DNA of 64,000 nucleotides from Rhodoferax potami. GTDB taxonomy: Bacteria; Pseudomonadota; Gammaproteobacteria; Burkholderiales; Burkholderiaceae_C. Under the pieces are notes generated by a model that did no database searches, was not told the DNA's origin, and worked only from the letters and a program-made list of their open reading frames with translations. Shown piece after piece: positions 12,678 through 38,281 of this stretch. The stretch is from positions 868,001 to 932,000 of the forward strand of contig NZ_JAVBIK010000001.1 of assembly GCF_032193805.1 (NCBI RefSeq). Direction: 5' to 3'. The position numbers and the translations under genes were made by a program. Each line of letters starts with the position of its first letter. Position 1 is the first letter of the stretch.

Positions 12678-12685
12678 CGCACCAT
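12678..12685. repeat. 8-bp target duplication, left (CGCACCAT)
   Basis: CGCACCAT directly abuts the outer end of the left terminal inverted repeat; the same eight bases abut the right one at 38274-38281 in the same orientation. Eight bases is the duplication length of IS1595-family elements. Confidence 0.9.
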
Positions 12686-12711
12686 GGGTCTTACTACGCT
12701 GTTGGCCCAAC
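12686..12711 (+). repeat. left terminal inverted repeat of the large transposon
   Basis: Twenty-six bases identical, in reverse complement, to 38248-38273. After these the ends diverge, though both keep a CTTTCA a few bases further in. Confidence 0.92.
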
Positions 12712-12754
12712 ATTTGTAACTTTCAGGATGCGGAAAATCCGCTGACTTTTCTCC

Positions 12755-12786
12755 AAAAAGGGTAGCTTTACGAGGCTACCCTTTTT
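12755..12786. terminator. rho-independent terminator near the left transposon end
   Basis: AAAAAGGGTAGC and GCTACCCTTTTT pair around an 8-base loop, with T-runs on both strands. It stands 44 bases inside the left end and 20 bases before the first cargo gene, so it can shield cargo from outside transcription or the reverse. Confidence 0.85.
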
Positions 12787-13139
12787 GTTTTGAAAGTTCC
12801 AAAAAATGAAGAAAACCCCGTCTGCGTTGAAGTGGCTAGCAGAAAGCAGAGGAAGAATCGCCCATAAACACAGCGCCAACGCCTCTGTCATCCTGTTGCT
12901 GGAAGCTAAGGTAACTACGTTGAGTTCCGAGCTTCGTATTGCCGAGTTGATGCTATCGAACGCCAAAGAGAATCAACTCAAGCTCGACTCCGAGTTGAAA
13001 GCCTTAGACCAAACAGTTCAAATATTCGATGAGAGGCTTGACCCCACCAAAATCGAATCGATTCGAGGTTGGCAGGGAGGTAATCCCCCCGATAAACCAA
13101 AGGACCGAGAAGTAGAATTTTCTAAGAAGGAAGTTCTAC

Positions 13140-13403
13140 GTGAAGAAGTCGAGATTTACGGATAGCCAGATCATGGCTGCATTGAAGCGTGTTGAAGCCG
13201 GTTTGCCGGTTCCTGATATCTGTCGTGAGTTGGGGATCAGCACCGCCACGTTCTACAAGTGGCGTGCCAAGTTTGGTGGCATGGACACATCCATGATGGC
13301 CCGCATGAAGGAACTCGAAGACGAGAACCGGCGGCTTAAGAAGATGTATCTGGAAGAGAAACTCAAGGCCGAGATCGCCAACGAGTACCTCGCAAAAAAG
13401 TAA
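13140..13403 (+). CDS. IS407-group transposase OrfA, copy 2
   Basis: Identical in protein sequence to the OrfA of copy 1: helix-turn-helix followed by a coiled coil. Near its end the reading frame contains GCA AAA AAG TAA, a classic A6G slippery site, followed by a GC-rich hairpin at about 13404-13422, for -1 frameshifting into OrfB. Confidence 0.95.
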
Positions 13404-13426
13404 GCCGGCCGTCTCGCCGGCGCGAG

Positions 13427-14227
13427 ATGGCCAAAGAAGTCGTGCAGCAGCGTGGGCTTGCCATACGGGTCGCCTGTTCCGTGTTCTCAATCAGCGAATC
13501 CTGCTACCGCTACGAGTCCAAGCAAAACGCTGAGAATGAACTCATCGCTGATTGGTTGATGCGGCTGACGGACAACCACCGCAACTGGGGCTTTGGCCTG
13601 TGCTACCTGTATCTGCGCAATGTGAAGAGTTTCGGGTGGAACCATAAACGCGTGTACCGCATCTATCGTGAGCTGGAGTTGAACCTACGTATCAAGCCTA
13701 GGAAGCGCTTGGTGCGTGAGAAGCCCGAGCCTTTGGCTGTGCCAGAGGCCATCAATCAGGTCTGGTCGATGGACTTCATGCACGACAAGCTGGAGGACGG
13801 CCGTAACCTGCGCTTGTTCAATGTCATCGACGACTTCAACCGTGAGGCGCTGGGCATTGAGGTGGACTTCTCGCTGCCGTCGGAGCGGGTGATCCGAGCA
13901 TTGAAGCAGATCATTTCCTGGCGTGGCAAGCCGCAAGTGATTCGATGTGACAACGGGCCCGAGAACATCAGTGGCACCATCCAGAACTGGGCCGAGGAAT
14001 GGGGCATCCGGTTTGAATATATCCAGCCGGGCAAGCCACAGCAGAATGCCTATGTCGAACGGTTTAACAGGACTGTTCGATACGAATGGCTATCCCAGTA
14101 TTACTGGTCCAGTATTGAAGAAGTTCAGGACTTCGCCACGCAGTGGATGTGGTCCTACAATCACGACCGCCCGAATATGGCCCTGGGCGGTTTCACCCCA
14201 ATGCAGCACTTGGCCATGGCTGCATAA
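13427..14227 (+). CDS. IS407-group transposase OrfB, copy 2
   Basis: Identical in protein sequence to OrfB of copy 1, with intact Asp, Asp and Glu catalytic residues. After a -1 slip the path reads VSRPSRRRE into the ATG at 13427, so OrfAB of about 362 residues is the probable transposase. Nothing suggests inactivation, so this copy is likely mobile. Confidence 0.95.
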
Positions 14228-14588
14228 CCGTTCTACTTTTAGGTCCGGTGGAAATTGGGGGGATTACCGGGACGCTATGGCGAGCGAGGAGCATTACGGA
14301 AATACTTGCAGACCTTTGCGGAGAGCAACGCGCCGGCCTATCTATCGCTGAGCGACTTTGCCTTGGCAACAATTGCAGAGTTTTCCTTGGCGTTCAGCAC
14401 CAACAATGAACTACGAGAGTGGTGCCACAACACACTACGTCGCGCGCTCCGTGTACTTTCAGACCGAGATGTATTGGAAGCCCGTCAGGACGACATTTCA
14501 GGAGCAACCTCATGGCGCCCAAAGCAGCAAAAGCCTAAGACGCTGGCTGACTTGTAACCGGAGACCTAGCCTTCCACTCAAGTGCAGT

Positions 14589-15098
14589 TCAGATAGCAGC
14601 GGGCTTCTTGAAGTTCTTGTGTTCGTCCACGAGCTTCGGTATGTCGCACGAAATGCGCACAAAGAATTGACTTCGTTTGACCACTACATGCTCGTAGAGT
14701 TTTGCTGCGCGTTCAATAATTTCCGCACGATGGGCCTTGATGAACTCATATTGTTTCTGCAACATGCGCTTGTACTTATCGCTTTGTGCGTCAACATCCA
14801 ATTCAGCAATCTCGCTGTCAAGCACCGGTATCATGTAATTGAGGGCAATCATTCCCAGCTTATTTGCGGGATTCAGACGCTCATGGAGCTTGAACGCGGT
14901 GGGGGCCGATGAGTCAATTCGGTCCTGCTGAGGCTTATAGGAGGAAAGAGGTGCCAGAAATTTGTGGCTGCCTATTTCCAGTAAGACTCCGACGTAGACC
15001 TTTGAACCCTTGTAGTTCACGCCCCCGTTATTCGGGACCTTCGAATCGAATTGCTGCAGAAACTTCACGTATTCGTCGGTCACCGTATAGAAGCGCAT
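14589..15098 (-). CDS. toxN: type III toxin-antitoxin endoribonuclease toxin, ToxN/AbiQ family
   Basis: A 169-residue toxin of the ToxN/AbiQ family, endoribonucleases that are held inactive by pseudoknot RNAs and cause growth arrest or abortive phage infection when freed. Family marks are the start MRFYTVTDEYVKFLQQFDSK, the YVGVLLEIGSHKFLAPLSSYK block near residues 35-55, LNYMIPV near 88, and DKYKRMLQKQYEFIKAHR near 107-124. Length is that of the family. Directly upstream on the same strand come an intrinsic terminator and tandem RNA repeats with their own promoter, the standard type III layout. No frame damage is seen. It is cargo of the large transposon, stop side facing the disrupted coiled-coil gene. 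Confidence 0.9.
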   Translation of the reverse strand: MRFYTVTDEYVKFLQQFDSKVPNNGGVNYKGSKVYVGVLLEIGSHKFLAPLSSYKPQQDRIDSSAPTAFKLHERLNPANKLGMIALNYMIPVLDSEIAELDVDAQSDKYKRMLQKQYEFIKAHRAEIIERAAKLYEHVVVKRSQFFVRISCDIPKLVDEHKNFKKPAAI

Positions 15099-15147: not shown

Positions 15148-15248
15148 ATCCCGACTTAAGGTGTCGAGAACCTGATTTCAAGCTCGCACTCAAGGTAGCG
15201 TATCACCTGATTTTCAAGTTCGCACTTAAAGGCAGCGTATCTCCTGTG
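15148..15248 (-). ncRNA. toxI: ToxI antitoxin RNA with about 2.5 tandem repeats
   Basis: On the minus strand two direct repeats of 37 and 36 bases follow each other: 15240-15204 and 15203-15168, both starting ATACGCT, containing a CCTT-AGTGCGA-CTTGAAA core and ending TCAGGT. A degenerate partial third (15167-15150) follows, then the terminator. Type III antitoxins are arrays of such repeats, cut by the toxin into units that fold as pseudoknots and inhibit it. The RNA start is placed seven bases after the -10 box. Few repeats, as here, are known for the shorter members of the class. The exact processing point cannot be read from sequence. Confidence 0.85.
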
Positions 15249-15284: not shown

Positions 15285-15560
15285 AGACTTGTACAAAAAG
15301 AGGCTCTGACAACTTTTGACATCCTTACATCCTATACCTACCGATTTTAGCCCGCTATCAACAACACAAACAATCATCGGGGAGGTCTTCCGTTGGCCAT
15401 TGAAACAGGTGACCTTCCTTTATCAGGACCACTGGCCTTAGCGAACCGATTTCCGGTCAACAGCATTTCAAAGTTCCGATGCCTTCCATGCGTAAAGCCT
15501 CGGAAGTGATGGGAGAGCCGGTAATCCCCCCAATTTCCACCGGACCTAAAAGTAGAACGG

Positions 15561-16361
15561 TTATGCAGCCATGGCCAAGTGCTGCATTGGGGTGAAACCG
15601 CCCAGGGCCATATTCGGGCGGTCGTGATTGTAGGACCACATCCACTGCGTGGCGAAGTCCTGAACTTCTTCAATACTGGACCAGTAATACTGGGATAGCC
15701 ATTCGTATCGAACAGTCCTGTTAAACCGTTCGACATAGGCATTCTGCTGTGGCTTGCCCGGCTGGATATATTCAAACCGGATGCCCCATTCCTCGGCCCA
15801 GTTCTGGATGGTGCCACTGATGTTCTCGGGCCCGTTGTCACATCGAATCACTTGCGGCTTGCCACGCCAGGAAATGATCTGCTTCAATGCTCGGATCACC
15901 CGCTCCGACGGCAGCGAGAAGTCCACCTCAATGCCCAGCGCCTCACGGTTGAAGTCGTCGATGACATTGAACAAGCGCAGGTTACGGCCGTCCTCCAGCT
16001 TGTCGTGCATGAAGTCCATCGACCAGACCTGATTGATGGCCTCTGGCACAGCCAAAGGCTCGGGCTTCTCACGCACCAAGCGCTTCCTAGGCTTGATACG
16101 TAGGTTCAACTCCAGCTCACGATAGATGCGGTACACGCGTTTATGGTTCCACCCGAAACTCTTCACATTGCGCAGATACAGGTAGCACAGGCCAAAGCCC
16201 CAGTTGCGGTGGTTGTCCGTCAGCCGCATCAACCAATCAGCGATGAGTTCATTCTCAGCGTTTTGCTTGGACTCGTAGCGGTAGCAGGATTCGCTGATTG
16301 AGAACACGGAACAGGCGACCCGTATGGCAAGCCCACGCTGCTGCACGACTTCTTTGGCCAT
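15561..16361 (-). CDS. IS407-group transposase OrfB, copy 3
   Basis: Same 266-residue DDE integrase protein as in copies 1 and 2, complete, with all three catalytic acidic residues. Likely expressed as the OrfAB fusion. Confidence 0.95.
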
Positions 16362-16384
16362 CTCGCGCCGGCGAGACGGCCGGC

Positions 16385-16648
16385 TTACTTTTTTGCGAGG
16401 TACTCGTTGGCGATCTCGGCCTTGAGTTTCTCTTCCAGATACATCTTCTTAAGCCGCCGGTTCTCGTCTTCGAGTTCCTTCATGCGGGCCATCATGGATG
16501 TGTCCATGCCACCAAACTTGGCACGCCACTTGTAGAACGTGGCGGTGCTGATCCCCAACTCACGACAGATATCAGGAACCGGCAAACCGGCTTCAACACG
16601 CTTCAATGCAGCCATGATCTGGCTATCCGTAAATCTCGACTTCTTCAC
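16385..16648 (-). CDS. IS407-group transposase OrfA, copy 3
   Basis: Same 87-residue helix-turn-helix plus coiled-coil protein as in copies 1 and 2, with the A6G slippery site and GC hairpin at its end. Confidence 0.95.
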
Positions 16649-16885
16649 GTAGAACTTCCTTCTTAGAAAATTCTACTTCTCGGTCCTTTGGTTTATCGGG
16701 GGGATTACCAGCCCAACGTTCAGGGCATGGGGCAGAACACGTTTTGAAGCTGCGCCTGGTGCCTCGCGATTTTGGTCTTCGCGAAAGCTCGTCTCCACCG
16801 CACAGTCATGCATGTACTTTGGCTCGATATTCAGGTAGACGCCCTTCTCAGAGCGGCTCGGACCTATAAGGGCGGCACTACAAAC

Positions 16886-18091
16886 TTACCGTGGTGGGCG
16901 CCCATTCACAGACGAAATCGGTGAACGACCCTTGGCCGGCCCACTGGATGTCGCCCACTGATTGCCAGTGACCAGCACCTCGTGGTTTCGGTGTCGTCCA
17001 TGCGTGTAGCCCCTGAAGTCCCTTGAGAGGCCCACGTTCGTCGCATAGTGCATCAAGCGTTGTGTGATTGCACCCGGAGGCATCCGGTTATGGTCTTCCC
17101 GAAACGCCGTCTCGACCGCGTACTCGTGCAAGTACTTAGGCTCCAGGTTCAGATAGATACCTTTTTCTGCGCGGTCCATGCGTGCAGTAAAGCTTTCTGA
17201 GTTGTTGGAGTGCTCGCCCCCTGGACCTACCAAGTGCTGGCTGTGATTCACTTGCACGTGCCCCATAAATCGCTTTCCTAGCTTGCTAAACGCATTGCCG
17301 GTATCAGTGGCCAAAATGGACTCTGGTATGGCAACAAACCGACGTGCGAGCTCCTCTGCAGCCGCAGGGTTTTCAGCAAGGCAAATGGCCGAGCGCGTTT
17401 GCAATGCGCCCTTGCCCGAAGCACCGCCTCGCATGCGAGCATTCAGCGTGATGCGCCGCAACGGAGGAAGAACGTTTCCATAGGCCGGGTCAAGCACTCC
17501 TCCTTCAGCCAGTGCTTTCGCTTTGGCATCACGCTTTTTCTTCTGCCTTGCCGCTTGCGTGAGCATTGCATCATCCAGAGCTTCAGACTCATCGATAAGG
17601 CGCTGACCAAGTGGGATACCGCGCTTCTCACTGGCACGCCGCCCAGATGTATGTGCACCGTCCATCTCGATGACACCAGAGATGAATCCAATGTTGTAGC
17701 CACGGGCAATGGCTTCTCTTGCTTTCGTGAGCAATGTAAAAGCTGTGTTGTAGCCCTTCATGTTCAGAATGCGTCGCACCTCTAGAGCAGGCTTTCCTGA
17801 GGCTCCGCAGACCCACAAATGAACAGCAGCCAACAATGTTTGAAGCGGCATCCGACGATTCGCAAATACTGTGTTTGAAGTGACGCTAAATCGCTTACCG
17901 CAGCCCTTGCACTTCCAACGGAGTTCTTTCGTTGACCAGTAGTGCGTGGCGCTCGAACTGCAATGGGGGCATGTGACGACCTTGAAGCATCCCCACCTCG
18001 CTTTTGCTAAGTGGCGGACACACTGAAGGTCAGTCATGCTTGCGTAAGTCGATACCGAGACGTCGACGGCCCCTGATGACATGTGATGCAA
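16886..18091 (-). CDS. IS1595-family (ISXO2-like) transposase
   Basis: A 401-residue transposase. An N-terminal zinc ribbon (about residues 40-70, VVTCPHCSS and WKCKGCGKRFSV) is followed by TSNTVFANRRMPLQTLLAAVHLW, hallmarks of the IS1595 family. The catalytic core shows Asp in VIEMDGAH, Asp in LATDTGNAF and the EHSNNSESFTARMDRAEKG block expected for the family's DDN(K/H) active site. A Lys/Arg-rich insertion near 185-205 (RQKKKRDAKAKA) could touch DNA. It probably moves the whole 25.6-kb element. Two small genes end 74 bases upstream on the same strand and may share its transcript. An internal ATG (codon 19) is an alternative start. Confidence 0.92.
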   Translation of the reverse strand: MHHMSSGAVDVSVSTYASMTDLQCVRHLAKARWGCFKVVTCPHCSSSATHYWSTKELRWKCKGCGKRFSVTSNTVFANRRMPLQTLLAAVHLWVCGASGKPALEVRRILNMKGYNTAFTLLTKAREAIARGYNIGFISGVIEMDGAHTSGRRASEKRGIPLGQRLIDESEALDDAMLTQAARQKKKRDAKAKALAEGGVLDPAYGNVLPPLRRITLNARMRGGASGKGALQTRSAICLAENPAAAEELARRFVAIPESILATDTGNAFSKLGKRFMGHVQVNHSQHLVGPGGEHSNNSESFTARMDRAEKGIYLNLEPKYLHEYAVETAFREDHNRMPPGAITQRLMHYATNVGLSRDFRGYTHGRHRNHEVLVTGNQWATSSGPAKGRSPISSVNGRPPR

Positions 18092-18165
18092 GCTCGATGG
18101 TGAGCTCGGACGGTAGACACTTTACCTGCGCTCCTTCTTTGCTGCCGGCGTAGTTGCTGCGTCAC

Positions 18166-18894
18166 TCATACGGCGGTACTCAAAAAGTCCACAAACTCTT
18201 CCTCGCTGACGCACTCCGAGCTCACGATGCTCACTTTAGAAAAAGGACGCTGTGTTCGAGTCATCCATCTCGCGAGGCCATTGCGCGTGACGGCAGGTAG
18301 CGTGTCGACGGCAACATAGCTTTTCTCATTTTCTTCAATAGGTATGGGCAGGCACAGGTCCGGTCTTGGCGGCAAAGCAAAACGCCCATTGGATGCGTGT
18401 GCATAGGCTCTCGCGAGTAGGTCCCACGCCTGGATGCCGGCAGGCTTGTGTACGAAGAGTGGGGTTCCGAAATCTGACTCTAAGTCAGAAGAAAACACAG
18501 CGCTGTAATGACCTTTGCGCTTGTTCATGGTGATGGTCGCGGTCGCAATTTGTGCAACATTCTTGTTGAGACCGTCTGGCCAATGCGCGATGACGGCACT
18601 CATGTTCTCGATGAACGCTGGCCGCTTGGAAGGGGCGATTTCTTCGGGCTCCAGGGCTTCCACCTGATTAAACGTGAGACACACCAGCCGCGCGACCAGG
18701 TCCCAGACACTTGCAGACCACCGTGGGTAGTTGGTGATGAAGCCCATTGGGAGTTCGCCGACTCCCGCAACATACGTGGCTGACTTGTAACTGGCTTCTG
18801 CTTGAAGAACCTCGTAAGCGATATCCATGCGTCCAAGCACATTCATGGATGTCTCTTTGCCCGGCTTGCAGGCGTGAAGGGATACTTTGAGCAT
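18166..18894 (-). CDS. cargo protein of unknown function, coupled to the 99-aa gene
   Basis: A 242-residue soluble protein; the ATG at 18892-18894 overlaps the stop of the preceding gene (TGATG), so it is translationally coupled. I recognise no domain. Features are a central helical segment (SASVWDLVARLVCLTFNQVEALE), a segment NKRKGHYSAVFSSDLESDFGTPLFVHKPAG, and an AWDLLARAYAHAS helix. It precedes the IS1595-type transposase by 74 bases on the same strand, which would fit an accessory transposition factor, but there is no direct evidence. Confidence 0.75.
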   Translation of the reverse strand: MLKVSLHACKPGKETSMNVLGRMDIAYEVLQAEASYKSATYVAGVGELPMGFITNYPRWSASVWDLVARLVCLTFNQVEALEPEEIAPSKRPAFIENMSAVIAHWPDGLNKNVAQIATATITMNKRKGHYSAVFSSDLESDFGTPLFVHKPAGIQAWDLLARAYAHASNGRFALPPRPDLCLPIPIEENEKSYVAVDTLPAVTRNGLARWMTRTQRPFSKVSIVSSECVSEEEFVDFLSTAV

Positions 18895-19193
18895 CAGAGC
18901 ACCCTGATATCCCAAGTTTGGCCGTATTGGATGCCGTCTACGTACTCAAACCCGCGAATGCGCATCTGGCTATCTTTTAAAAACAGGACATCGGCATCCA
19001 GCAGCATGGGAATCAGCGGCTGCGGTACAGGCTCTGTCGAGGAGTAAAGCTCAGCCGTTGCAACGATTCGACCGAGTGCAGGGACGCGTGCTTCTCGGAT
19101 GTGCAAGACGCCCTTGTAGACAGGCATTGCCGCGCGTTGCCGAGCAGGAACAGCGCTTCCTCGTTGGTTGATTAATTGAACAGCGGCTTTCAT
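18894..19193 (-). CDS. small cargo protein of unknown function
   Basis: A 99-residue protein starting MKAAVQLINQRGSAVPARQR, with a good ribosome site (AAAGGAG) upstream. No family recognised. The basic N-terminus and the beta-like middle (VYKGVLHIREARVPALGRIV) are the only features. It is the first gene of a minus-strand set continuing with the 242-aa gene and the transposase; the promoter must lie in 19194-19335. Confidence 0.75.
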   Translation of the reverse strand: MKAAVQLINQRGSAVPARQRAAMPVYKGVLHIREARVPALGRIVATAELYSSTEPVPQPLIPMLLDADVLFLKDSQMRIRGFEYVDGIQYGQTWDIRVL

Positions 19194-19301
19194 AAAAACT
19201 CCTTTGACCTATTCAGCGTCTAGGTCGCGTGCTCACTTTTTCTTATACATAAACCTTTTAAGATTTATTAGAGATAAAACATACTGGGGCTCGGTAGGAT
19301 T

Positions 19302-19327
19302 CGTATAAATCTAAAAACGTTTATACG
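19302..19327. promoter_or_regulatory. operator-like inverted repeat between divergent genes
   Basis: CGTATAAA and TTTATACG form an 8-bp inverted repeat around ten bases, eight bases before the GTG of the DUF6471 gene and within the divergent region with the 99-aa gene. A site for an autoregulatory DNA-binding protein, perhaps the DUF6471 product, is plausible. Confidence 0.5.
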
Positions 19328-19335
19328 CCTCGTCT

Positions 19336-19602
19336 GTGAGAACCCGCGATTCCGACTTTTATGCCAAGCATGCCAAGGCCTTGGTAAAGGACATTCGCGA
19401 ACAAAAAGAGGTGTCGTACAAAGAACTGGCACGCAAGCTCGAGCCCGAGAACGCACATGACGGCGACGTAGACGTGCAGATGCTTATCAACAGAGTTAAC
19501 AAAGGCAAATTCAGCTTTGCTTTTGCACTTGAGTTGCTCGCAGCACTCGGCGTCAAGAGCATCGACATTCCCGTGCCTCCGCAAAAGCGGCCTAAGCCTT
19601 AG
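19336..19602 (+). CDS. DUF6471-like small regulatory protein
   Basis: An 88-residue protein from a GTG at 19336. The layout (KHAKALVKDIREQKEVSYKELARKLEP, then LINRVNKGKFSFAFALELLAALG) looks like a compact helix-turn-helix in which YKELARKL and LINRVNKGKFS are the recognition part; I associate it with DUF6471 proteins common on mobile elements. Probably a DNA-binding regulator, perhaps of the divergent transposase operon, acting at the inverted repeat just upstream. Its last four bases overlap the end of the convergent 58-aa gene. Confidence 0.75.
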   Translation: MRTRDSDFYAKHAKALVKDIREQKEVSYKELARKLEPENAHDGDVDVQMLINRVNKGKFSFAFALELLAALGVKSIDIPVPPQKRPKP

Positions 19603-19775
19603 TTTTTGCATGGTGCCTCCGCTTCTGTCCTTGGCGTTTGAGGTTGCTCCAGCATCTTCTTAGCCAACAGATACTCTGTACGGCGCACCATGTCGGCTAC
19701 GCTGTTGCCCTGCGCCGGTCTGGCTTCGTAATCGCGGACTATCGCCTCCAGCGTTTGGTTTTGTTTCGTCTTCAT
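19599..19775 (-). CDS. 58-residue protein, end of the LexA-led gene string
   Basis: A short frame from ATG 19775 to the stop at 19599, starting MKTKQNQTLEAIVRDYEARP and containing SVADMVRRTEYLLAKKMLEQ. A good ribosome site (GGGAGTGG) precedes it and the HEPN-like gene ends 21 bases upstream, so it is probably the last gene of that operon. Amphipathic helices are likely; function unknown. It overlaps the DUF6471 gene tail to tail by four bases. Confidence 0.6.
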   Translation of the reverse strand: MKTKQNQTLEAIVRDYEARPAQGNSVADMVRRTEYLLAKKMLEQPQTPRTEAEAPCKN

Positions 19776-19796
19776 TTAAAACCACTCCCGACCTAA

Positions 19797-20147
19797 TCAG
19801 CCTGAATTGCTACGCGCTTTTTGAGCCAGCGCAATCAACGCAATGACCTCTTCCTCGGGCGCCTCCAGCGGCCCGTATGACTGGTTCATACGTTCAAGCA
19901 CCGGCTCAATGGCTTGCGGACTGATACCAAGACGTGCTGCACCCTCAGACAGCATCTCTGGATAAGGATGTGACTGCAGGTCCTTGGGGGCTCCCAGGAT
20001 GGCAAGCGCATAGAGATACAGCGCATCAAACGCACAGCTGTACCGTGTAGCAAGACTGTTCTCGGCATTTTGTGCAGCTTGGAGCATGAGGTCCCCTAAA
20101 CCATTACGTGACGTGGCGAGCGCCGAATCGCGTGTCATTGATTGCAT
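19797..20147 (-). CDS. HEPN-like small helical protein
   Basis: A 116-residue protein from ATG 20145-20147, which overlaps the original end of the HAD gene, so start and stop were coupled. Sequence such as DLMLQAAQNAENSLATRYSCAFDALYLYALAILG resembles HEPN-type helical proteins of the SAV_6107 kind, with a later segment LGISPQAIEPVLERMNQSYG. No clear catalytic R-x4-6-H motif is visible, so a nuclease role is not supported; a nucleotidyltransferase partner or structural role is possible. Since IS21 copy A interrupts the gene in front, its normal operon promoter is cut off. Confidence 0.65.
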   Translation of the reverse strand: MQSMTRDSALATSRNGLGDLMLQAAQNAENSLATRYSCAFDALYLYALAILGAPKDLQSHPYPEMLSEGAARLGISPQAIEPVLERMNQSYGPLEAPEEEVIALIALAQKARSNSG

Positions 20148-20344
20148 AGTTGCTCCAGTGCTGCTTTGATTTTTTGATGAACTTCCGGATGGCTGATGCC
20201 GTCTTTTTCGTGGGTTTGGATGAAATTGCTGGCGCATTCCTGTGGCCAACCCTCGCCGTTGTCACGCGCAGTATGAAAATGACACGAGAACGCGGTGAGG
20301 AATTGATACACCTCGACTAACGTGCCAAGCCATCCGAACCATGG

Positions 20345-22254
<1,910 letters not shown>

Positions 22255-23057
22255 AGGCGCCAAGCAAAGACAAAACAACCAATCACCCCACATAACGGTG
22301 TATCAAATCCACGCCGCGTTTGCGTTCCACAGTTGTATCAAATCGAGACTGCGTTTGACACCGTCATCGTCCAGAGCAATCCAGCCCGAGGGCTTACGGC
22401 GCCGCACGTCCTCCCACACCTGCTTGCCTCGCGGCAAGGCCGTGAACATGTCTTGGTCCATTCGGCTGTGAAAGGTTGCCCCGATAACGCGTTGGCGCAG
22501 CCGCGGCCCCAGCTGCTTCGCAGACTTGGCGCACCCATAGCGGCAGACCCAAGCGGTACTGAGGACGATGCGTACCTGTGGGTATGGCTCAAGCAAGGTT
22601 TCGAGCAAGCCAATGTGCTGGAAAAGTTTGTACTGCTCTGGCGCCGACAAGTAGGCTCCAATCCGTGGGTGCCAAAGGACATTTTCGTGATGGAGTACGC
22701 CATCAAAGTCGAGGTACAGCAGCAGTTCACCGTGGCCTAGGAGCTTTCTCATAGGGGGCTCCCAGCACGCACCAAGATAAGGCCCGAGTGGAATTCCCGG
22801 GTGACGTCCCGCTCGTAAGTGATGTGATGCAGCGTCTTCCACGCAGACCAGAGCCGGCGGACTTCTTTCGGCAAATCGGGTGTCACTTTTCACCACATAC
22901 AGGCCAATTGGTTTTCGGCACATAGGAGCCAGAGCGTTTTCGGCACATATAGGCCATTTGGTTTTCGTCATATAGGAGCCAGCCGGGGGATTGGACGGGC
23001 ATCTCGAACGCGACGTAACTGTCGTTACCTTCTGAATTTTTTGTTCAGGAGTAACGG

Positions 23058-28439: not shown

Positions 28440-28488
28440 CTTTTGAAATCAATGACTTACAGTGTTTTCATCTTTGGTTGGACTGTAG

Positions 28489-29055: not shown

Positions 29056-29100
29056 CTAGAATTACGACGAAGGGTCAAAAAGGCCCAAGGGAGCTATGGT

Positions 29101-32100
29101 TTGGCTGAGGCATCAACGTTCGTAATCGACCTGCTGACTTATATCGAAGAGGTCGAAAAACTCAAAACAAAACCGGCCTTCACAGTGCCAACAGAGTTTT
29201 TTGTTGCCTTTCAGCAGGACCTCAAAGGGCTCCCCGAAATCCGCTTCAACGTGCAAGTTGAAGGTGACGACGTTTGGTTAAAAGTACCTCGTCTTCAAGA
29301 AATTGGCGCCCCCGACCCCGGTGAAGCCTTGAGGCAATGGGTAACGCTGCCCAAAACTCCGGAAAAGGTCCCAGAGCTAAAAGCTGAGTGCGTACTTTTC
29401 GAGGGAAAGCGGGAGGTTTCTCGTGAGCAACTGCAAGACCGCCCCGATGTCAAAGAGCTCTTCGACTGGTATGTGGAAAACCAATGGGAGCCATGGGCTG
29501 CCGCTGAAAAGCCACGCCGTAAATCAATATCCCTCTACAACAAGCTTTTCGCACTGCAGCAGACCATCTCATCTGAAGGTGCCGAAACCCCGCTTGAGCT
29601 TGCATGGGGTCTTGGATATTCAACTTGGAAGAAGGAGGGGCAGGCGAATTCGGTCAAGTACCCGCTTTTGGTGCAGTCCTGCGAAATAACTCTAAATCCG
29701 CGGACTTTCGACCTTGAGGTTAGACCTCGTGATGTGGACACACGTCTTGAGGTGGACTGCTATGCCGAGATGGACGTTCCAGGCGTCAAACCGATTGAGG
29801 AGTTCTGGAAAAGCTTCCAGGCTACTAGCCAAAATAGAGTCAATCCATTTGAAGACTCAACCTTTGAAGGGGTCCTGAAGGCAGCTGTTGGCCATTTGGA
29901 CCCCTCCGGCAAGTACGAGGTCCGCACAGATGACGTGACGCTGCCAGCTGTCGGAGACAAATTGTTGGCCACCAACACTTGGGTTCTCTTTGGACGAAAG
30001 CGTAGTGGCGATATTTTTCTTGAAGACATCCGTCGACTCAAGAAGACTGTTGAGGCCACGGAAACCTTGCCAAACGTCATTAGGAGCTTTGTCGAAGAAG
30101 GAGATGCTTCGGTTCGGGTACGTCCAGAAGTGCAGTTCCGGGGGTTGTCGACTAGCGACGGTTCTAACGCGGCCAAAGAGTTGTATTTCCCGATGGCCTA
30201 TAACGACGAGCAGGTCTCGATAATCCAGAAGCTTGAGGCGAATGATGGGGTTGTAGTGCAAGGCCCGCCGGGGACTGGAAAGACCCACACGATTGCTAAC
30301 GTCATATGCCATTACTTGGCCATGGGCAAGCGGGTGCTTGTTACTTCAAAAGGTGAAACCGCTCTATCAGTTTTGCAGGAAAAGCTCCCCGAGCGTATCC
30401 GCCCACTGAGTGTGGCACTGCTCTCTGAAGAGCGAGAGGGCATGAAGCAGTTTGAACACGCCATTCAGACCATTGCAACGGGAGTGGAGGGACTTCAGCC
30501 CCATCGGATTGAGGCACACATAGTGAGCCTTGACGCGGAACTCAATCAGCTTCATGCCAAGATTTCGCATGTTGACCGGTCAATTGCCGCGCATGCAGCG
30601 AGTCACATGCGCCAATATAAATTCCAAGGGCGAGAAATCTCCCCCGAAGAAATCGCGAAGTTGGTGATTGAGCAAGCAGATGAGCATCAGTGGTTTGACG
30701 ACAATGTTTCAGACCAAAAAGGCGAGGCTTTGTCATTCACAGATGCCGACATCACTGGATTGCGGCAGGCTCGGGCAAAAGTTGGCGCAGATATCGCGTA
30801 TCTCACAGCATCCTTGCCGCCAAACGATGACCTGCCCAGCTGGTCTGACCTTATTGGGCTGCACAAGGACATCGTTAAGGCTAAATCCATTGAATCAAAA
30901 GTAGAGGCTGGCGCCATCATCTCTTTGGTTGATTCGAAGTATGAAACCTTCAATCGTGCCCAAGAGTTACTGACATTCCTCGATGAATATTTAGCGCTCA
31001 AGGGAAGGCTGCTCGGCGATGCTATCGGACGCACTCTAGCTACCAGGCTCGCTGAATTGCAAGAACACGACCCTGTTCTGACTGGTTTGCTTGGCGTTTG
31101 CGGGTCATTTCGAGACATTGAGGCCAAGAGGAAAGAGTTTGTTGCAAAAGCTATCAGCGTCCCAGATTTGGCCGAGCGCAATCCAGATTTCATAGAAGCG
31201 TTGACGCGATTGATGAATGGCAAGGGCGCGTTTTTGCTCCCATTTGGAAAAGGCGAGGCTCGCCAATTGGTCGCGTCTGTCACGTTGTTGGGCGGAGCCC
31301 CCCAACGTACAGAAGACTGGCAAGAGGTCAACACTTATGTGCAGTGGCGGCTAAATGCACATCGGGAGGTGGCTCGATGGGCAGCAATCAGTACAGAATT
31401 TGGACTTAGCTGCCAAATCGCTGAGATTGAGACAACGGTCCGTTCCGTTGTCCAACAACAGGCTTGGGTTGACGATGCAAAACGGTTTGTTTTCGAAATG
31501 GACCGGCAAATGCATGGCCGTGTTCAAGCAGTCTGCGGCAAGCAAGTTGCCGACGCGGTGACAGAACAGGGTGACGGCTATCTAGTTGAAGTACGAGCAA
31601 GCCTGAATGCCCATTTGGAGCGAGGGCAGCTTGGCTATGCAATCAAGCGCGCGGGCGATGTTTTGGATAAGTTGAGAGATAGAAGTGGTTTAGTAGTTGA
31701 CCAGCTGCGCGAATTCTTAACCCGAGAACTCGGCTCGCCGGTTTCAGTTGAAAGTGACCTACAAGCAAATTGGCTTGCGATTCAGAGAGATTTGTCACGG
31801 CTCAACGGTCTGCGTAGTTCGTTTGATGAGATTGACCGGGTGACCAATCTCATTTTCTCTGCGGGGGCTGAGAACTGGGCAAGTAGGTTGCGCACGGTTG
31901 CTGTATCCGGAGACTCCGATGCGGTGCTGCCAGTTCGTTGGCGCGAGGCTTGGTCATGGCGTATTGCCTATCTGTTTCTCGAAAAGATAGACGTTCATCA
32001 AAAAATTCGGGACCTATTTGGCGAGCGGCGCACACTGACGGCATCGCTTTCACGTACTTACCAAGACCTCGTCGCAGAGAAGACCTGGCTGGGCGTTTTC

Positions 32101-33588
32101 AACAACTCTCCACAAAGCATTCGCCAAGCGCTGCAGGCTTACCTGAACTCTATCCAGGCAATGGGTTCCGGCACAGGCATACGCGCGGTTCGTCATCGCC
32201 GGCACGCACGTGAAGCTATGCTAAAGGCATACATGGCGGTGCCTTGCTGGGTACTTCCACAGTGGCGAGTTTCCGAGACGTTACCCCCTGAGATAGGTCT
32301 ATTCGACCTTGTCATCATTGACGAGGCGTCACAATCCGATATCTGGGCTTTGCCAGCCTTACTTCGTGGCAAGAAGTTGCTTGTCGTCGGGGACCACAAG
32401 CAAGTATCCCCCGGGGCAGTAGGTCTCGCTGAGCAAAGAATCATTGACTTGGAACAGCGTTTCTTAAGGTCGCAGTTCCATGGCGCGCAAATGACTCCGG
32501 ACAAGTCGGTTTATGACCTGGCTCGCGTCGTCTTTGCAGGCAACTCTGTAATGCTGAAAGAGCACTTTCGATGTGTGCCGGCAATCATTGAGTTCTCAAA
32601 CCGAGAGTTTTACAGCGGGGATATTAAGCCGCTAAGAGTTCCAAAGGCCAACGAGCGTCTGGACCCACCACTTATCGATGTGCGGGTTAAGGGTGGTTAT
32701 CGCAAAGGGGATACCAACCCCGCCGAAGCACAGGCAATCGTTCAAGAGATTGAAAAAATCCTCACGACCCCAGAAATGGATGGCCGTTCTATCGGAATCG
32801 TCACTTTGCTTGGTACTGAACAGGCAAAGTTAATCAATGACTTGATTAATGAAAGAGTGTCGCCGGGGGATATCGTCTCTCGCAAGATTGCGGTTGGGCC
32901 ACCCCCTGTGTTTCAAGGGCGCGAACGCGACATCATGATGGTGTCGATGGTGCTCGCACCGGGTGACCGTACCGCATCGGCAGTGGCTGGCCAACAACAA
33001 CGGTTTAACGTGGCCCTATCAAGGGCACGCGACCGTATGTACTTATTCCGGTCAGTTGCGGATAACGCATTTTCAGAGGACTCCCTTAGCGGCAAGGTGA
33101 TGCGGCACTTCCGCCAACCTTTCAATCAGGATGCACGGCAAGTTGAACGGCTGAGAGACCTATGTGAGTCTGCGTTCGAGCGGGACATGTTCGATGAAAT
33201 CACCAAGAGGGGGTATCGCATCCAACCGCAAGTGCCCTGTGGTTCCTACCGAATCGATTTTGTAATTGAGGGTAGCGAGGGTCGTCGACTGGCCGTGGAG
33301 TGTGATGGGGACAGGTTCCATGGCCCCGGTCAATGGTCCGACGACATGGCTCGTCAAAGGGTTTTGGAACGCGCTGGCTGGACATTCTGGCGTTGCTTTG
33401 CGTCTAGTTTTGCCAGACGTCGCTCAGAGGTCCTAGATGACTTGTGGTCGACGCTAGCGGGGCTAGGGATTGAGCCACTTGGAGCAGATTTTGTTGACAA
33501 CACCGCATGGGTTGAAACAAGGGACGTGGACCCATTTGGGGTCGACGTTACTGTGTCCGAACCCGTCGTGGAGGTTGCACTGCCATGA
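29101..33588 (+). CDS. superfamily 1 DNA2/NAM7-type helicase with C-terminal Vsr/MTES_1575-like nuclease
   Basis: A 1495-residue protein. Walker A GPPGTGKT lies at 388-395, then a long helical insertion (about 450-1000), Walker B LVIIDEASQSD with Asp1074-Glu1075, motif III GDHKQVSP, motif V QGRERDIMMVSM near 1273 and motif VI FNVALSRARDRMYLF near 1302: a UPF1/DNA2-like superfamily 1 helicase. Residues about 1359-1440 form a very-short-patch/MTES_1575-type nuclease (GYRIQPQVPCGSYRIDFVIE, then AVECDGDRFHG and RQRVLERAGWTFWRC), with PD-(D/E)xK-type acidic residues in place. Such fusions are common in phage-defence loci. Start TTG has an AAGGGAG seven bases upstream; the nearby ATG 29096 is out of frame. 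Its stop overlaps the next ATG. Confidence 0.9.
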   Translation: MAEASTFVIDLLTYIEEVEKLKTKPAFTVPTEFFVAFQQDLKGLPEIRFNVQVEGDDVWLKVPRLQEIGAPDPGEALRQWVTLPKTPEKVPELKAECVLFEGKREVSREQLQDRPDVKELFDWYVENQWEPWAAAEKPRRKSISLYNKLFALQQTISSEGAETPLELAWGLGYSTWKKEGQANSVKYPLLVQSCEITLNPRTFDLEVRPRDVDTRLEVDCYAEMDVPGVKPIEEFWKSFQATSQNRVNPFEDSTFEGVLKAAVGHLDPSGKYEVRTDDVTLPAVGDKLLATNTWVLFGRKRSGDIFLEDIRRLKKTVEATETLPNVIRSFVEEGDASVRVRPEVQFRGLSTSDGSNAAKELYFPMAYNDEQVSIIQKLEANDGVVVQGPPGTGKTHTIANVICHYLAMGKRVLVTSKGETALSVLQEKLPERIRPLSVALLSEEREGMKQFEHAIQTIATGVEGLQPHRIEAHIVSLDAELNQLHAKISHVDRSIAAHAASHMRQYKFQGREISPEEIAKLVIEQADEHQWFDDNVSDQKGEALSFTDADITGLRQARAKVGADIAYLTASLPPNDDLPSWSDLIGLHKDIVKAKSIESKVEAGAIISLVDSKYETFNRAQELLTFLDEYLALKGRLLGDAIGRTLATRLAELQEHDPVLTGLLGVCGSFRDIEAKRKEFVAKAISVPDLAERNPDFIEALTRLMNGKGAFLLPFGKGEARQLVASVTLLGGAPQRTEDWQEVNTYVQWRLNAHREVARWAAISTEFGLSCQIAEIETTVRSVVQQQAWVDDAKRFVFEMDRQMHGRVQAVCGKQVADAVTEQGDGYLVEVRASLNAHLERGQLGYAIKRAGDVLDKLRDRSGLVVDQLREFLTRELGSPVSVESDLQANWLAIQRDLSRLNGLRSSFDEIDRVTNLIFSAGAENWASRLRTVAVSGDSDAVLPVRWREAWSWRIAYLFLEKIDVHQKIRDLFGERRTLTASLSRTYQDLVAEKTWLGVFNNSPQSIRQALQAYLNSIQAMGSGTGIRAVRHRRHAREAMLKAYMAVPCWVLPQWRVSETLPPEIGLFDLVIIDEASQSDIWALPALLRGKKLLVVGDHKQVSPGAVGLAEQRIIDLEQRFLRSQFHGAQMTPDKSVYDLARVVFAGNSVMLKEHFRCVPAIIEFSNREFYSGDIKPLRVPKANERLDPPLIDVRVKGGYRKGDTNPAEAQAIVQEIEKILTTPEMDGRSIGIVTLLGTEQAKLINDLINERVSPGDIVSRKIAVGPPPVFQGRERDIMMVSMVLAPGDRTASAVAGQQQRFNVALSRARDRMYLFRSVADNAFSEDSLSGKVMRHFRQPFNQDARQVERLRDLCESAFERDMFDEITKRGYRIQPQVPCGSYRIDFVIEGSEGRRLAVECDGDRFHGPGQWSDDMARQRVLERAGWTFWRCFASSFARRRSEVLDDLWSTLAGLGIEPLGADFVDNTAWVETRDVDPFGVDVTVSEPVVEVALP

Positions 33589-34148
33589 CTAGGCCGCTGG
33601 GACGACTTGGAATTGCAGAGTTGGAAGAGCTTTTCAAGAAGCCGAACGCTACTGCTGACGAAATCAAGGCATTGGAGACAGAGCTCACATATCGGTCAAC
33701 TGCGAAAGCTGAAAAGCTACTTTCGGAAATTCGCAGCGGCGGTCGTTATAAACAGGCGATTGCCAGTGCAGGAAAGAGGATTGCTGAGAAGCAGCTGGTC
33801 CAACTCGAGCTCCCGTCGGTCGATGGCTTTGAGTTGTCTTCCAGTGCAGCTAACCCTAGCGTTCAATTGGTTAATCGCCCCTCATCGCCCGCGTCAATTC
33901 CTACGCCCACCCCACAAAAAATGACTAATGCCAAACCTGTATTGGCAATGTCAAAAGAACAAGCCTTCAAGATTTTGAAAGTATCGCCAACAGCCAGTTG
34001 GGAGCAACTTGAGAAATCGCGGAGAGAACTTGTAGCCAGTGGTCAACCAGACAAGTTGGCGGGTATGGCACCGGATGTACGGCAGTCCATTCAAGAGGAA
34101 TGTAAGCAAGTCAACGCAGCCTACAAGTTTCTATTGCAGGGCTCCTGA
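33585..34148 (+). CDS. J-domain-like protein with degenerate HPD motif
   Basis: A 187-residue protein overlapping the helicase stop by ATGA, so co-translated. The N-terminal half is helical and charged (ELEELFKKPNATADEIKALETELTYRS), a Pro/Ser-rich linker spans about 85-115, and residues 122-187 look like a J domain: MSKEQAFKILKVSPTASWEQ, SRRELVASGQPDKLAGM and KQVNAAYKFLL. The signature His-Pro-Asp, needed to stimulate Hsp70 ATPase, reads Gln-Pro-Asp. It may therefore be a scaffold that recruits the helicase or the OST-HTH protein rather than a true DnaJ cochaperone. Family assignment is by eye. Confidence 0.78.
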   Translation: MTRPLGRLGIAELEELFKKPNATADEIKALETELTYRSTAKAEKLLSEIRSGGRYKQAIASAGKRIAEKQLVQLELPSVDGFELSSSAANPSVQLVNRPSSPASIPTPTPQKMTNAKPVLAMSKEQAFKILKVSPTASWEQLEKSRRELVASGQPDKLAGMAPDVRQSIQEECKQVNAAYKFLLQGS

Positions 34149-34250
34149 CAGTTAGACGGTTGCTCCCGTCGTAGGCTACGCGTCTCTATTTTGCATGTTC
34201 CGCTACCGCAGCGAGGACCAAACTTCAGCTCTATTCAGGGAGAGAAAAAA

Positions 34251-35078
34251 ATGGAAGAGCCCCTTTACGCAGAGCTTCAGCGTGAAGTTCAAAGAAAGCT
34301 TGGCCGGTGCTTGATTCGAATTCAACAATACGAACTTCTGTTGAAAGAGATGCTCGCAAAGCGTGAAGTCTCGTTACAGACAGGTCGCAAGGGTTTGGTT
34401 CCGGAAGACTCTGAGTCAAATTTCAAGACCCTGGGTCAATTGGCAGGGGAGCTGACTGACGAGTATTTTCAGCCCACCCTCACAGATGCAGAAACACCCC
34501 TACCCGACAAATCAACAGACGAGAAAGAGCAGCCCCCGGGTTCATTCCACCTAAGTTTCAGCGTTTCGATTGCCCCAGAAGCGCACGCCAAGATGGTTAA
34601 AGAGCTACAAGAACTCGTAGACCTGCGCAATGACCTCGTCCATCACTTTTTAGAAGGCCAAGACCTTCTCTCAGAGCAGGGTTGTATTGCGGCGGACATG
34701 TACCTACAAGACTGTTACTCAGAAATTGACCGGCACCTCGCCTCTCTTCGGGAATGGGCTAAGTCATCGAATGAATCGAAGCTGTCGATGGCGGCATTTG
34801 TGATAAGCCCTGAATTTCAAGAGTTCTTGCTGGCAGGCATGAAACCGTCCAGCTCTGAGCGTGAAGGTGCTCTACCTAAATTCGTGGAGGTCCTTCGCCA
34901 GGCTGAAGGCGAGGTTGCCATTGATGGATGGACCCCCTTGAGTGCTGCAATTGAATTCGCAAAAGGCACGGCACCCGATGTGACACTAAAAACACACAGA
35001 TTTGGCAGCTGGCGCCAAGTCTTGTCGGAAGCTCGTGTTTTTGAGGTTTCCCGGCTGTCAAACGCAGTCTCGATTTGA
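34251..35078 (+). CDS. OST-HTH/LOTUS-type protein, C-terminus replaced by IS21 copy B
   Basis: ATG 34251 has an AGGGAGAG upstream. Residues 1-150 are helical (LQREVQRKLGRCLIRIQQYELLLKEM, KELQELVDLRNDLVHHFLEG; the latter looks HEPN-like). The last 70 residues, DGWTPLSAAIEFAKGTAPDV with FGSWRQVLSEARVFEVSR, match the OST-HTH/LOTUS fold, a winged-helix RNA-binding domain. IS21 copy B enters at codon 269, so the protein now ends LSNAVSI. Removing the IS and one CGGC restores RPQATGDSRETWYRSRLG and a stop at 37216, the expected final beta strand. It was the third gene of the helicase operon, 102 bases behind the J-like gene. Function is probably impaired. Confidence 0.75.
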   Translation: MEEPLYAELQREVQRKLGRCLIRIQQYELLLKEMLAKREVSLQTGRKGLVPEDSESNFKTLGQLAGELTDEYFQPTLTDAETPLPDKSTDEKEQPPGSFHLSFSVSIAPEAHAKMVKELQELVDLRNDLVHHFLEGQDLLSEQGCIAADMYLQDCYSEIDRHLASLREWAKSSNESKLSMAAFVISPEFQEFLLAGMKPSSSEREGALPKFVEVLRQAEGEVAIDGWTPLSAAIEFAKGTAPDVTLKTHRFGSWRQVLSEARVFEVSRLSNAVSI

Positions 35079-35161
35079 TACAACTGTGGAACGCAAACGC
35101 GGCGTGGATTTGATACACCGTTATGTGGGGTGATTGGTTGTTTTGTCTTTGCTTGGCGCCT

Positions 35162-37071
<1,910 letters not shown>

Positions 37072-37156
37072 CCATGGTTCGGATGGCTTGGCACGTTAGT
37101 CGAGGTGTATCAATTCCTCACCGCGTTCTCGTGTCATTTTCATACTGCGCGTGACA

Positions 37157-37633
37157 CGGCGGCCTCAAGCAACAGGAGACTCCAGGGAGACTTGGTATCG
37201 GTCGCGTCTTGGTTGAACCAGCTTGCATCCAGTGAGCCTGGTGAAAAGAGTCAAAAGGCTAGAAAAAGGTACCGACCCATCTGGGCCAATACACGATTTC
37301 CTCTGGTTTTTGGTGCTTTTTACGGGCTGGAATTGGCCCCAGAAGGCGTTCTACGTGTGGGCTTCTAATTTACTTTTTCCCGGCATCAACGTTCACGTAA
37401 GTTGTTGATTTCAAAGGGAAATGGCCACCTGCTGGATAACTCCCCCTCCAAGAGAAAAAAAGGCCTTCGAAATTGATGAGGCCTTTGCGGAATTTGAAGT
37501 GGTGTCGAGTTTCATTTCTCCACAGCCCATCCCAAGTGGATAAAGCATTATCTGGCTACGTGGCCCATATCCGGGATATGCCCGAATGGTCAAGGTCCAT
37601 TTAAATGCATACCTATGTTGGCATGGCCAGAAT
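37157..37633. other. gene-poor stretch holding the detached end of the OST-HTH gene
   Basis: Bases 37157-37216 are the original last 20 codons and stop of the OST-HTH gene, cut off by IS21 copy B. From 37217 to 37454 I see no supportable gene. A terminator at about 37455-37487 serves the minus-strand regulator gene. A 94-codon minus frame across this terminator is judged spurious. Confidence 0.6.
37455..37487 (-). terminator. terminator behind the RHH-like gene
   Basis: On the minus strand AAAGGCCT, a 12-base loop and AGGCCTTT are followed by a run of Ts. It lies about 150 bases behind the stop at 37634. Confidence 0.75.
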
Positions 37634-38083
37634 TTAAAGATTGATTGCAACCGCCAGCCGGACGATTTTTCCTCTGAGTTCGGGGTCGGTATCAACTGCG
37701 AACGTCATTGTTTTCAGAAGCAGTCCGAGGGGAATACCCGTTTTTGAGCTCAGTTTGGTTAAGGCTTCGCGCTCAGATATGGCAACTCTGATAACTCCGT
37801 ACTTTTGGCTGGTTGGACTCTTGTTTGCTTTTTGACGACGTAGTGCATTCAGCAGTTTGACTCGACCCGCCGGCGTCACATTCGCGCTGAGCCATTCATG
37901 GCAAGCTAGCCCTCGAAGGTCCTCTTTCGACTTAGACAACCTCTCTTCAAGCATTTCGACTCGATTTTTCGGGTCGACTTTGGCCTGCTTGAAGATGTCC
38001 GAACCTCGCATTACTGCTCTCTTGAGATATGCGAGTACAGCTGGTACTGATTCGTGTTTTAAGGGCATAGGTGCTTTTGACAT
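37634..38083 (-). CDS. ribbon-helix-helix-like regulator at the right transposon end
   Basis: A 149-residue protein from ATG 38081-38083. The middle is helical and charged (VEMLEERLSKSKEDLRGLACHEWL, RVKLLNALRRQKANKSP), and residues about 93-135 (YGVIRVAISEREALTKLSSKTGIPLGLLLKTM) have a beta strand and two helices in the order of MetJ/Arc-type ribbon-helix-helix domains. Two matched palindromes (CGTGATG-N2-CATCACG) lie just upstream, one of them seven bases from the start codon, so strong autorepression is likely. As the last gene before the right end, it may control transposon functions. No closer family recognised. Confidence 0.72.
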   Translation of the reverse strand: MSKAPMPLKHESVPAVLAYLKRAVMRGSDIFKQAKVDPKNRVEMLEERLSKSKEDLRGLACHEWLSANVTPAGRVKLLNALRRQKANKSPTSQKYGVIRVAISEREALTKLSSKTGIPLGLLLKTMTFAVDTDPELRGKIVRLAVAINL

Positions 38084-38089
38084 GCCTCA

Positions 38090-38115
38090 TTATGCGTGAT
38101 GGACATCACGCATAA
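38090..38115. promoter_or_regulatory. operator palindrome 1 of the RHH-like gene
   Basis: A perfect 26-bp palindrome built of TTATGCGTGATG, GA and CATCACGCATAA. Its core CGTGATGGACATCACG (38095-38110) recurs as site 2, centred 42 bases away, four helical turns, as expected for cooperative binding on one DNA face. Confidence 0.8.
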
Positions 38116-38136
38116 GCAACCCAGACAGAGCATTAA

Positions 38137-38152
38137 CGTGATGTGCATCACG
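38137..38152. promoter_or_regulatory. operator palindrome 2 of the RHH-like gene
   Basis: CGTGATGTGCATCACG has the same half-sites as palindrome 1 with the same two-base centre, further from the start codon, within 100 bases of the right transposon end. Confidence 0.78.
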
Positions 38153-38247
38153 CCAATTGTCGGCAAAGATGTAAAAGTCCAAAAATAGTCAATTTCTTGG
38201 GCGCTACCCTTTGGAAACCCGCATGCCTATTGGGTTTGAAAGGAATC

Positions 38248-38273
38248 GTTGGGCCAACAGCGTAGTAAGACCC
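38248..38273 (-). repeat. right terminal inverted repeat of the large transposon
   Basis: Exact reverse complement of 12686-12711 over all 26 bases. Outside it stands the second copy of the 8-bp target duplication. Confidence 0.92.
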
Positions 38274-38281
38274 CGCACCAT
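38274..38281. repeat. 8-bp target duplication, right (CGCACCAT)
   Basis: Same eight bases, same orientation, as at 12678-12685. Directly behind it begins the terminator hairpin of the OmpA-like gene. Confidence 0.9.

Follow-up and report, generated by a model that had tools for sequence, protein, structure and literature searches.

A probable large IS1595-family unit transposon that inserts next to intrinsic terminators in Rhodoferax potami and its relatives

We analyze a 25,588-bp mobile element of Rhodoferax potami (assembly GCF_032193805.1) located within a 64,000-nucleotide stretch of contig NZ_JAVBIK010000001.1 (positions 868,001 to 932,000, forward strand); this whole stretch is referred to as the window, and its own numbering is used throughout. 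The element is very probably a unit transposon that belongs, by its transposase, to the IS1595 family, carries a multi-gene core and inserts directly downstream of intrinsic terminators. This reading is built on features visible in the sequences compared: defined ends, 8-bp duplications, empty sites, an intact DDE transposase with preserved catalytic residues, co-variation between ends and transposases, a conserved core, exchange of cargo and adjacency to terminators. A first-pass annotation of the window had proposed a transposon with an IS1595-type transposase, a target duplication and defence cargo; that proposal is supported here, and the terminator-adjacent target is what its account had missed.

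The element is bounded by terminal inverted repeats of 26 bp, the left or L end at 12686-12711 (+ strand) and the right or R end at 38248-38273 (− strand), which are complementary at 26/26 positions and have the end sequence GGGTCTT. A perfect 8-bp direct repeat, CGCACCAT, abuts both ends (12678-12685 and 38274-38281), bearing out the exact ends and duplication claimed initially. In ten shuffles of the window's first 40 kb, no inverted pair that enclosed the transposase and was flanked by an exact 8-bp repeat did better than 17/26, and the 4.0-Mb genome contains the 26-bp end at these two places only, also with up to 3 mismatches. Empty sites were found in three genomes of the same genus (genomes are referred to by our own G numbers). 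The junction in G814 aligns with the joined flanks at 785/808 positions without gaps and holds a single CGCACCAT, as the first-pass annotation had anticipated; that in G804 aligns at 774/808, also without gaps, and its site reads TGCACCAA, while G786 aligns at 768/813 with 5 gap positions (alignment totals). Without nested insertion sequences (IS) and their duplications the unit measures 16,426 bp, a slight correction of the earlier figure of about 16.3 kb. A Pfam scan of window proteins (E ≤ 0.01) brought up no integrase or conjugation family, in line with the earlier statement. The intrinsic terminator of a host OmpA-family gene (38282-38312, − strand) adjoins the right duplication and faces the R end. 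Next to the L end, a subterminal region (12712-12790) contains the motif TTTGTAAC and T-run hairpins (about 12755-12786), a layout that by eye is similar in several related L ends.

The transposase gene (16886-18091, − strand) is a full-length open frame whose product matches Pfam DDE_Tnp_IS1595 (1.6e-16) and an N-terminal zinc ribbon (2.7e-7) and scores above the cut-off of the NCBIfam model NF033547. The four zinc-ribbon cysteines, D144, D263 and E299 are present, and any one of these residues is lacking from at most one of 19 aligned relatives, some of which are fragments; the intact transposase of the first-pass annotation is thereby confirmed. The IS1595 family is characterized by a zinc ribbon and an 8-bp duplication and comprises seven groups, according to the accessible part of PMC8101967. 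The window element has both features and a single intact IS1595 transposase gene, the nested IS bringing transposases of their own. In a tree of the 19 transposases, a branch with 100/100 support separates the 8 labelled rows with GGGT ends, without exception, from the 8 rows with CGSNATTA ends, here the sister clade; the remaining three rows are unlabelled, and one of them, G173, groups with the GGGT side, with no end found. The sister-clade elements of G384 and G047 have CGG..TT ends. Because end sequence follows transposase clade, the IS1595-type transposase most likely moves the window element.

Related elements were sought mainly among 399 family genomes. The 26-mer with up to 3 mismatches occurs in nine of them, and the same pattern read backwards in none; the first 22 bases are found in six genome-contig stretches, from Methylibium, Hydrogenophaga (two), Comamonas and Comamonadaceae (two, one genome). 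In G067 and G100, two ends flanked by exact 8-bp duplications delimit elements of 9.5 kb and 12.2 kb, respectively, a Hydrogenophaga metagenome-assembled genome (MAG) holds a 1.95-kb element with an exact 8-bp duplication and a 1-base indel in one end, and G844 has two ends on two contigs with an identical 8-bp duplication. A transposase profile matched 14/399 genomes at E ≤ 1e-20, and the genomes so identified yielded six more complete elements (5.1-18.6 kb) with exact duplications; G140a (5.1 kb) and G393 (18.6 kb) combine related ends and exact 8-bp duplications with the same transposase type. Close transposase relatives look rare outside the family, since a class-wide draw returned the own genome only (1/369) at E ≤ 1e-40. 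Fifteen plasmid records contain IS1595 transposases at E ≤ 1e-10, each below 60% identity; in IMG/VR the exact 22-base end is absent, and of 45 stretches fitting the transposase pattern 0 were confirmed.

The clade transposase (E ≤ 1e-20) accompanies the 26-mer in three of the nine genomes (the own genome, G067 and G100). The others comprise G036, G186 and G329, with short elements of 0.5-1.4 kb, and G084 and G319, in which the end lies near a contig edge; G036 has a sister-clade transposase elsewhere in its genome. The first-pass annotation had held that copies of the end occurring without this transposase would speak against its account, and such copies do exist in 6/9 genomes with the 26-mer; because the short elements keep the duplication (perfect in one, 7/8 in two), we read them as non-autonomous derivatives and not as a refutation. 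A GGGT-ended element of 11.3 kb in G295 carries two L-end genes and a YgjP-like metallopeptidase. In the sixth genome without the clade transposase, G382, several ends at locus L021 (7374-12450) point the same way, and GTGATTACTTAGAGAAAC or a near match follows two of them; perhaps another element family has inserted in the end.

The first-pass annotation spoke of a simple DDE-type transposase; the DDE type stands, and 'simple' does not, because the transposase gene is part of a conserved core of several genes. Two genes beside it, p99 (18894-19193, − strand, phrog_5560) and p249 (18166-18894, − strand), are present in all nine rows on the GGGT side of the tree and in 0/8 labelled sister-clade rows, where the G317 contig ends just past the transposase. 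A LexA-like S24 repressor gene (25863-26483, − strand, Pfam Peptidase_S24 2.5e-24) was found in 8/9 GGGT-side rows, G057 being the exception. The same fraction, 8/9, holds for a gene at the L end encoding a coiled-coil/winged-helix protein, the contig of G057 ending inside the transposase; by tblastn it is also found in five of the eight sister-clade rows (G047, G164a, G164b, G140b and G843). In the window this gene is cut by an IS3-type element into a 5′ part (12806-13078, + strand) and a 3′ part (14269-14557, + strand). AlphaFold predicts for an intact homologue a long helix leading into a winged helix (mean predicted local distance difference test, pLDDT, 86.5; predicted template modelling score, pTM, 0.53). 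Its best PDB neighbours in a fold search include winged-helix regulators, with E above 0.01, and by sequence its matches to solved structures are mostly coiled coils. For p249 two β4-α repeats are predicted (pLDDT 92). Its fold search gave no convincing neighbour (best E 0.02 among viral and 0.06 among PDB structures), and matches to Pur-alpha or ThermoDBP-like proteins were too weak to use. The search of solved structures by sequence gave nothing useful for the transposase, p249 or p99. No p249 homologue was found in plasmids at E ≤ 1e-3 or in phages, and its profile returned the own protein and two weak partial matches in 399 genomes of the order. The core further includes a DUF6471 gene (19336-19602, + strand) and remains of an HAD_SAK_2 gene between two IS21-type elements (22361-22961, − strand), and a gene termed p149 (37634-38083, − strand) adjoins the R end. 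Elsewhere, LexA-like, distant p249-like, HAD and DUF6471 genes lie together at L033 (16845-19731, G774), with no IS1595 transposase there by tblastn, and other mobile units may make use of this module; at L032 (2894-11128, G562) a distant p249-like open reading frame (ORF) lies near ORFs that by eye resemble large tyrosine recombinases.

Reading of the flanks revealed a hairpin followed by a T-run directly beside most duplications. A scanner was defined that requires a stem of at least 6 with at least 5 GC pairs and a T-run within a span from 12 nt outside to 6 nt inside the duplication; it replaced a test based on folding energy, which proved too blunt in GC-rich DNA. It flags 9/13 complete elements and 2386/162812 background positions (1.5%). 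Its rules were written after the first 13 sites had been seen, and it was therefore applied unchanged to other sites. Among the single ends already in hand it found a terminator at 3/4 of R type, 1/7 of L type and the one unassigned end; at the fourth R-type end, that of G844, a terminator is recognizable by eye. New ends were collected by sequence alone from 26 matching genomes out of 349 in the family (a backward control matched 3). They provide 19 fresh sites, two single ends belonging to one element, and 14 of these have a terminator (paired elements 5/6, single ends 9/14). Against an intergenic background obtained with the same gene-masking rule (669/25808, 2.6%), the enrichment in the two sets corresponds to p = 3e-12 and 6e-19; that rule is rough, since only 9/19 sites fall in intergenic sequence under it, and with a generous background of 12% the values become 3e-6 and 1e-9. 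Flagged terminators, taken to the sixth base after the hairpin, end no more than 5 nt from the near edge of the duplication. They lie at 11/16 R-facing and 3/19 L-facing ends (p = 0.002). The two sides were told apart by the core genes or subterminal motifs next to them, and by eye for small elements; all five flagged fresh pairs have the terminator at the end read as R. Left out of these counts were the L067 pair (whose duplications differ, 5/8), the G382 ends on C39/C115 and the G053 ends; L063, its second end being eroded, was excluded as a pair and contributes its intact end to the single ends. Four different genomes have an insertion at the terminator of rpsT, which encodes S20 (flanks of L153, L156, L172 and L110). 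The OmpA-family gene serves both the window element and G010; G158 and G267 likewise share a gene, and so do G057 and G319.

In the mechanism that we propose, the transposase would bind the 26-bp ends and join them to a target with an 8-bp stagger lying just after a terminator hairpin and its T-run, usually with the R end towards the terminator. The L-end protein is probably an end-binding or regulatory partner, the LexA-like protein would probably repress transposition until DNA damage, and p99 and p249 may act as clade-specific helpers. Since the preference is seen in elements of both clades (G047 and G164b in the sister clade) and p249 in only one of them, it would be the transposase or the L-end protein that recognizes terminators. 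Targeting terminators would provide a harbour outside reading frames, the T-run hairpin inside the L end could insulate the element, cargo for phage defence or toxin-antitoxin functions would be swapped around the core, and small transposase-less elements with the same ends would presumably be mobilized in trans. We regard it as reasonably likely that these elements form a distinct group of large IS1595-type transposons whose transposition complex recognizes intrinsic terminators, through hairpin DNA, the T-run or the terminating polymerase. Insertion would take place at a fixed distance, the R end facing the terminator. Terminators of ordinary host genes such as rpsT would then serve as safe harbours in the spread of phage-defence genes, and toxin-antitoxin mini-elements would be moved in trans.

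Several observations weigh against this account. Transposition by the window element is itself a proposal from sequence comparison, and the present mobility of this copy is doubtful because its L-end protein gene is broken by the IS3-type element. The scanner finds no terminator at 4/13 first and 5/19 fresh sites; by clade, the first set divides into 7/9 GGGT-ended and only 2/4 complete sister-clade elements, and two alphaproteobacterial plasmid relatives with exact duplications (2.75 and 1.6 kb) have no terminator by eye. On single ends alone the orientation bias is weak (p = 0.09), and in G393, and seemingly by eye in an element carrying HipBA, it is the L end that faces the terminator. Since sites share genes, the p-values overstate independence; with each target gene counted once, 10/15 fresh sites have a terminator. 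Finally, the 11.3-kb G295 element shows neither transposase nor p249 by tblastn.

The most serious competing explanation dispenses with targeting altogether: insertion would be random, and only harmless copies, those behind terminators, would survive. Terminators do mark harmless places, and the accessible part of PMC9208149 reports IS1595 elements to be over-represented between genes. Survival alone, however, predicts spread across intergenic space, whereas the enrichment persists against an intergenic background, the terminators keep a spacing tighter than the scanner's span, and orientation is biased; the IS3- and IS21-type elements of the window are at terminators in 0/6 cases, a weak control, as five are nested in this element. 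We therefore hold this explanation to be unlikely. That the ends are instead moved in trans by another, unseen transposase, with the IS1595 gene as mere cargo, we judge very improbable. The 26-mer genomes lacking a transposase of this clade, the short elements and G295 would all fit it, yet the IS1595 gene lies in G844 and in five elements with both ends (window, G067, G100, G140a and G393), the tree has every labelled end in agreement with its transposase clade, and 8-bp duplications fit what the accessible part of PMC8101967 gives for the IS1595 family. Least credible of all, to the point of being nearly discounted, is a composite or recombinase-driven genomic island that picked up an IS1595 copy. 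Nested IS3- and IS21-type copies are present, and in the G164b relative one ORF resembles a tyrosine recombinase by eye, with no Pfam match; however, the ends are 26-bp repeats and not IS copies, no recombinase family appears among the window proteins scanned, and the empty site displays an exact 8-bp duplication.

The transposon read in this way has a mosaic interior. It hosts two IS3-type elements, at 13079-14268 (+ strand, 4-bp duplication GGGA) and 15520-16709 (− strand, duplication AGCC), and three IS21-type elements, at 20260-22360 (element a, + strand, CCGT duplication), 22962-25525 (+ strand, delimited by its ORFs and ends) and 35056-37156 (element b, − strand, identical to a but inverted, CGGC duplication), with families assigned by eye. 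The second IS3-type element splits a 95-codon C-terminal remnant (15377-16855) of a second transposase of the clade, which lies 30 bp downstream of the intact gene and consists of 15377-15517 (− strand, codons 355-401, 70% identical) and 16709-16855 (− strand, codons 307-355, 63% identical). The window and G844, a Comamonadaceae MAG, have in common a block corresponding to 16887-26573 (nested IS excluded) in three pieces of 93, 96 and 90% identity, of which the longest, at 93%, starts at the transposase stop codon. Outside this block, 34 bp at the L end and 641 bp at the R end (83%) align, and further matches are one 65-bp stretch, an 83-bp match in the transposase remnant and cross-matches between ends. 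The remnant and the abrupt change in identity at 16887, taken jointly, suggest that the window element is a hybrid of two elements. Where the window has its cargo, G844 has type I restriction-modification, so that G844 provides, around a 93%-identical core, an element with the same type of ends and different cargo, of the kind that the first-pass annotation proposed to look for. The 65-bp stretch (28396-28460), 92% identical to one near the G844 R end, contains an inverted repeat, CACCTGTTC/GAACAGGTG, upstream of a gene similar to that of mobile mystery protein A, and is perhaps an operator. The idea that the cargo at 28461-37633 is a separate nested insertion was dropped, this single 65-bp match being all that lay behind it.

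The cargo of the window element begins with a ToxN/AbiQ toxin gene of a type III toxin-antitoxin system (14589-15098, − strand; Pfam 1.2e-38, PADLOC AbiQ 1.9e-66). Upstream of it lie 2.1 tandem copies of a 37-nt repeat (15170-15246, − strand), which we take to resemble ToxI antitoxin repeats and which are a probable ToxI-type antitoxin RNA; Rfam returned no match anywhere in the element, these repeats included. The remaining cargo comprises genes for a DUF4238 protein (26675-27535, − strand), a helix-turn-helix protein similar to mobile mystery protein A (28489-29055, + strand, below the NCBIfam cut-off), a 1495-aa helicase with an MTES_1575 endonuclease domain (29101-33588, + strand) resembling the candidate defence protein PDC-S37 (1.5e-62) and a DnaJ-like protein (33585-34148, + strand, weak and below cut-off), as well as an ORF running into IS21-type element b (34191-35078, + strand).

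Across the eight transposase-bearing elements scanned, with only part of the cargo ORFs covered and G140a, G238 and others outside the scan, five have clear defence or restriction genes. Besides the window, these are G844 (type I methyltransferase 1.1e-253, HSDR_N), G393 (type I restriction-modification) and, in the sister clade, G384 (AlwI-type restriction-modification) and G047 (Avs2-like, 3.2e-126, spanning 181-899 of 1504 profile positions). Weaker matches are LmuB-like in G164b (6.9e-21, sister clade) and Fic in G100, and the scan of G067 cargo gave no defence match. Recognized toxin-antitoxin genes occur in 4/9 small paired elements of 0.5-2 kb, a count in which G036, G329, G136 and G267 are unscanned and from which a tenth candidate pair (G238 C21, 1.94 kb) is excluded. 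They are HipBA, AbiEi/AbiEii (G217), ParE (G240) and a RelE/ParE-family toxin (G186) identified by an NCBIfam match and no Pfam match; the one ORF scanned in the small element of G213 had no match.

If this reading is correct, a transposase family of small IS acts as a carrier of large phage-defence cargo, with an effect comparable to that of Tn7-like elements, and intrinsic terminators are general landing sites for a DDE transposon, a preference that could be put to use for harmless gene insertion. In the literature searched, which mostly excludes subscription journals, no report of a p99-p249 core or of a terminator target was found. Known systems share parts of this combination. Tn7 is large, often carries defence cargo and occupies a harmless site downstream of a gene, but it recognizes glmS via TnsD, makes a 5-bp duplication and has a different core; no TnsA/B/C/D families were found among the proteins scanned here, and the duplication is 8 bp. 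Composite transposons are flanked by two IS copies, whereas the present ends share only 26 bp. Group IIC introns are retroelements working by RNA and are not known to have a DDE transposase or to make such a target duplication. What they have in common with the present elements is sites beside terminator stem-loops, as described in the accessible part of PMC7923331. Short ISXO2-type IS1595 elements share the DDE_Tnp_IS1595 domain and the 8-bp duplication, but their copies are about 1 kb long with one ORF in the genomes surveyed, as far as the accessible part of PMC11092175 reports. The ISNha5 group of the same family, a group of transporter IS, has CGGnnTT ends, which the CGG..TT ends of the sister clade fit and the GGGTCTT ends of the window do not, and sizes of 3.5-7.9 kb. 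It shares an IS1595-type transposase and a transcription-regulator passenger, as the accessible part of PMC11891212 states for ISNha5, so that the first-pass remark on passenger genes concerned something already known. The window clade differs from it in its GGGT ends, its p99-p249 core, its LexA-like and DUF6471 genes, its sizes of up to 25.6 kb, its defence cargo and its terminator-adjacent sites.

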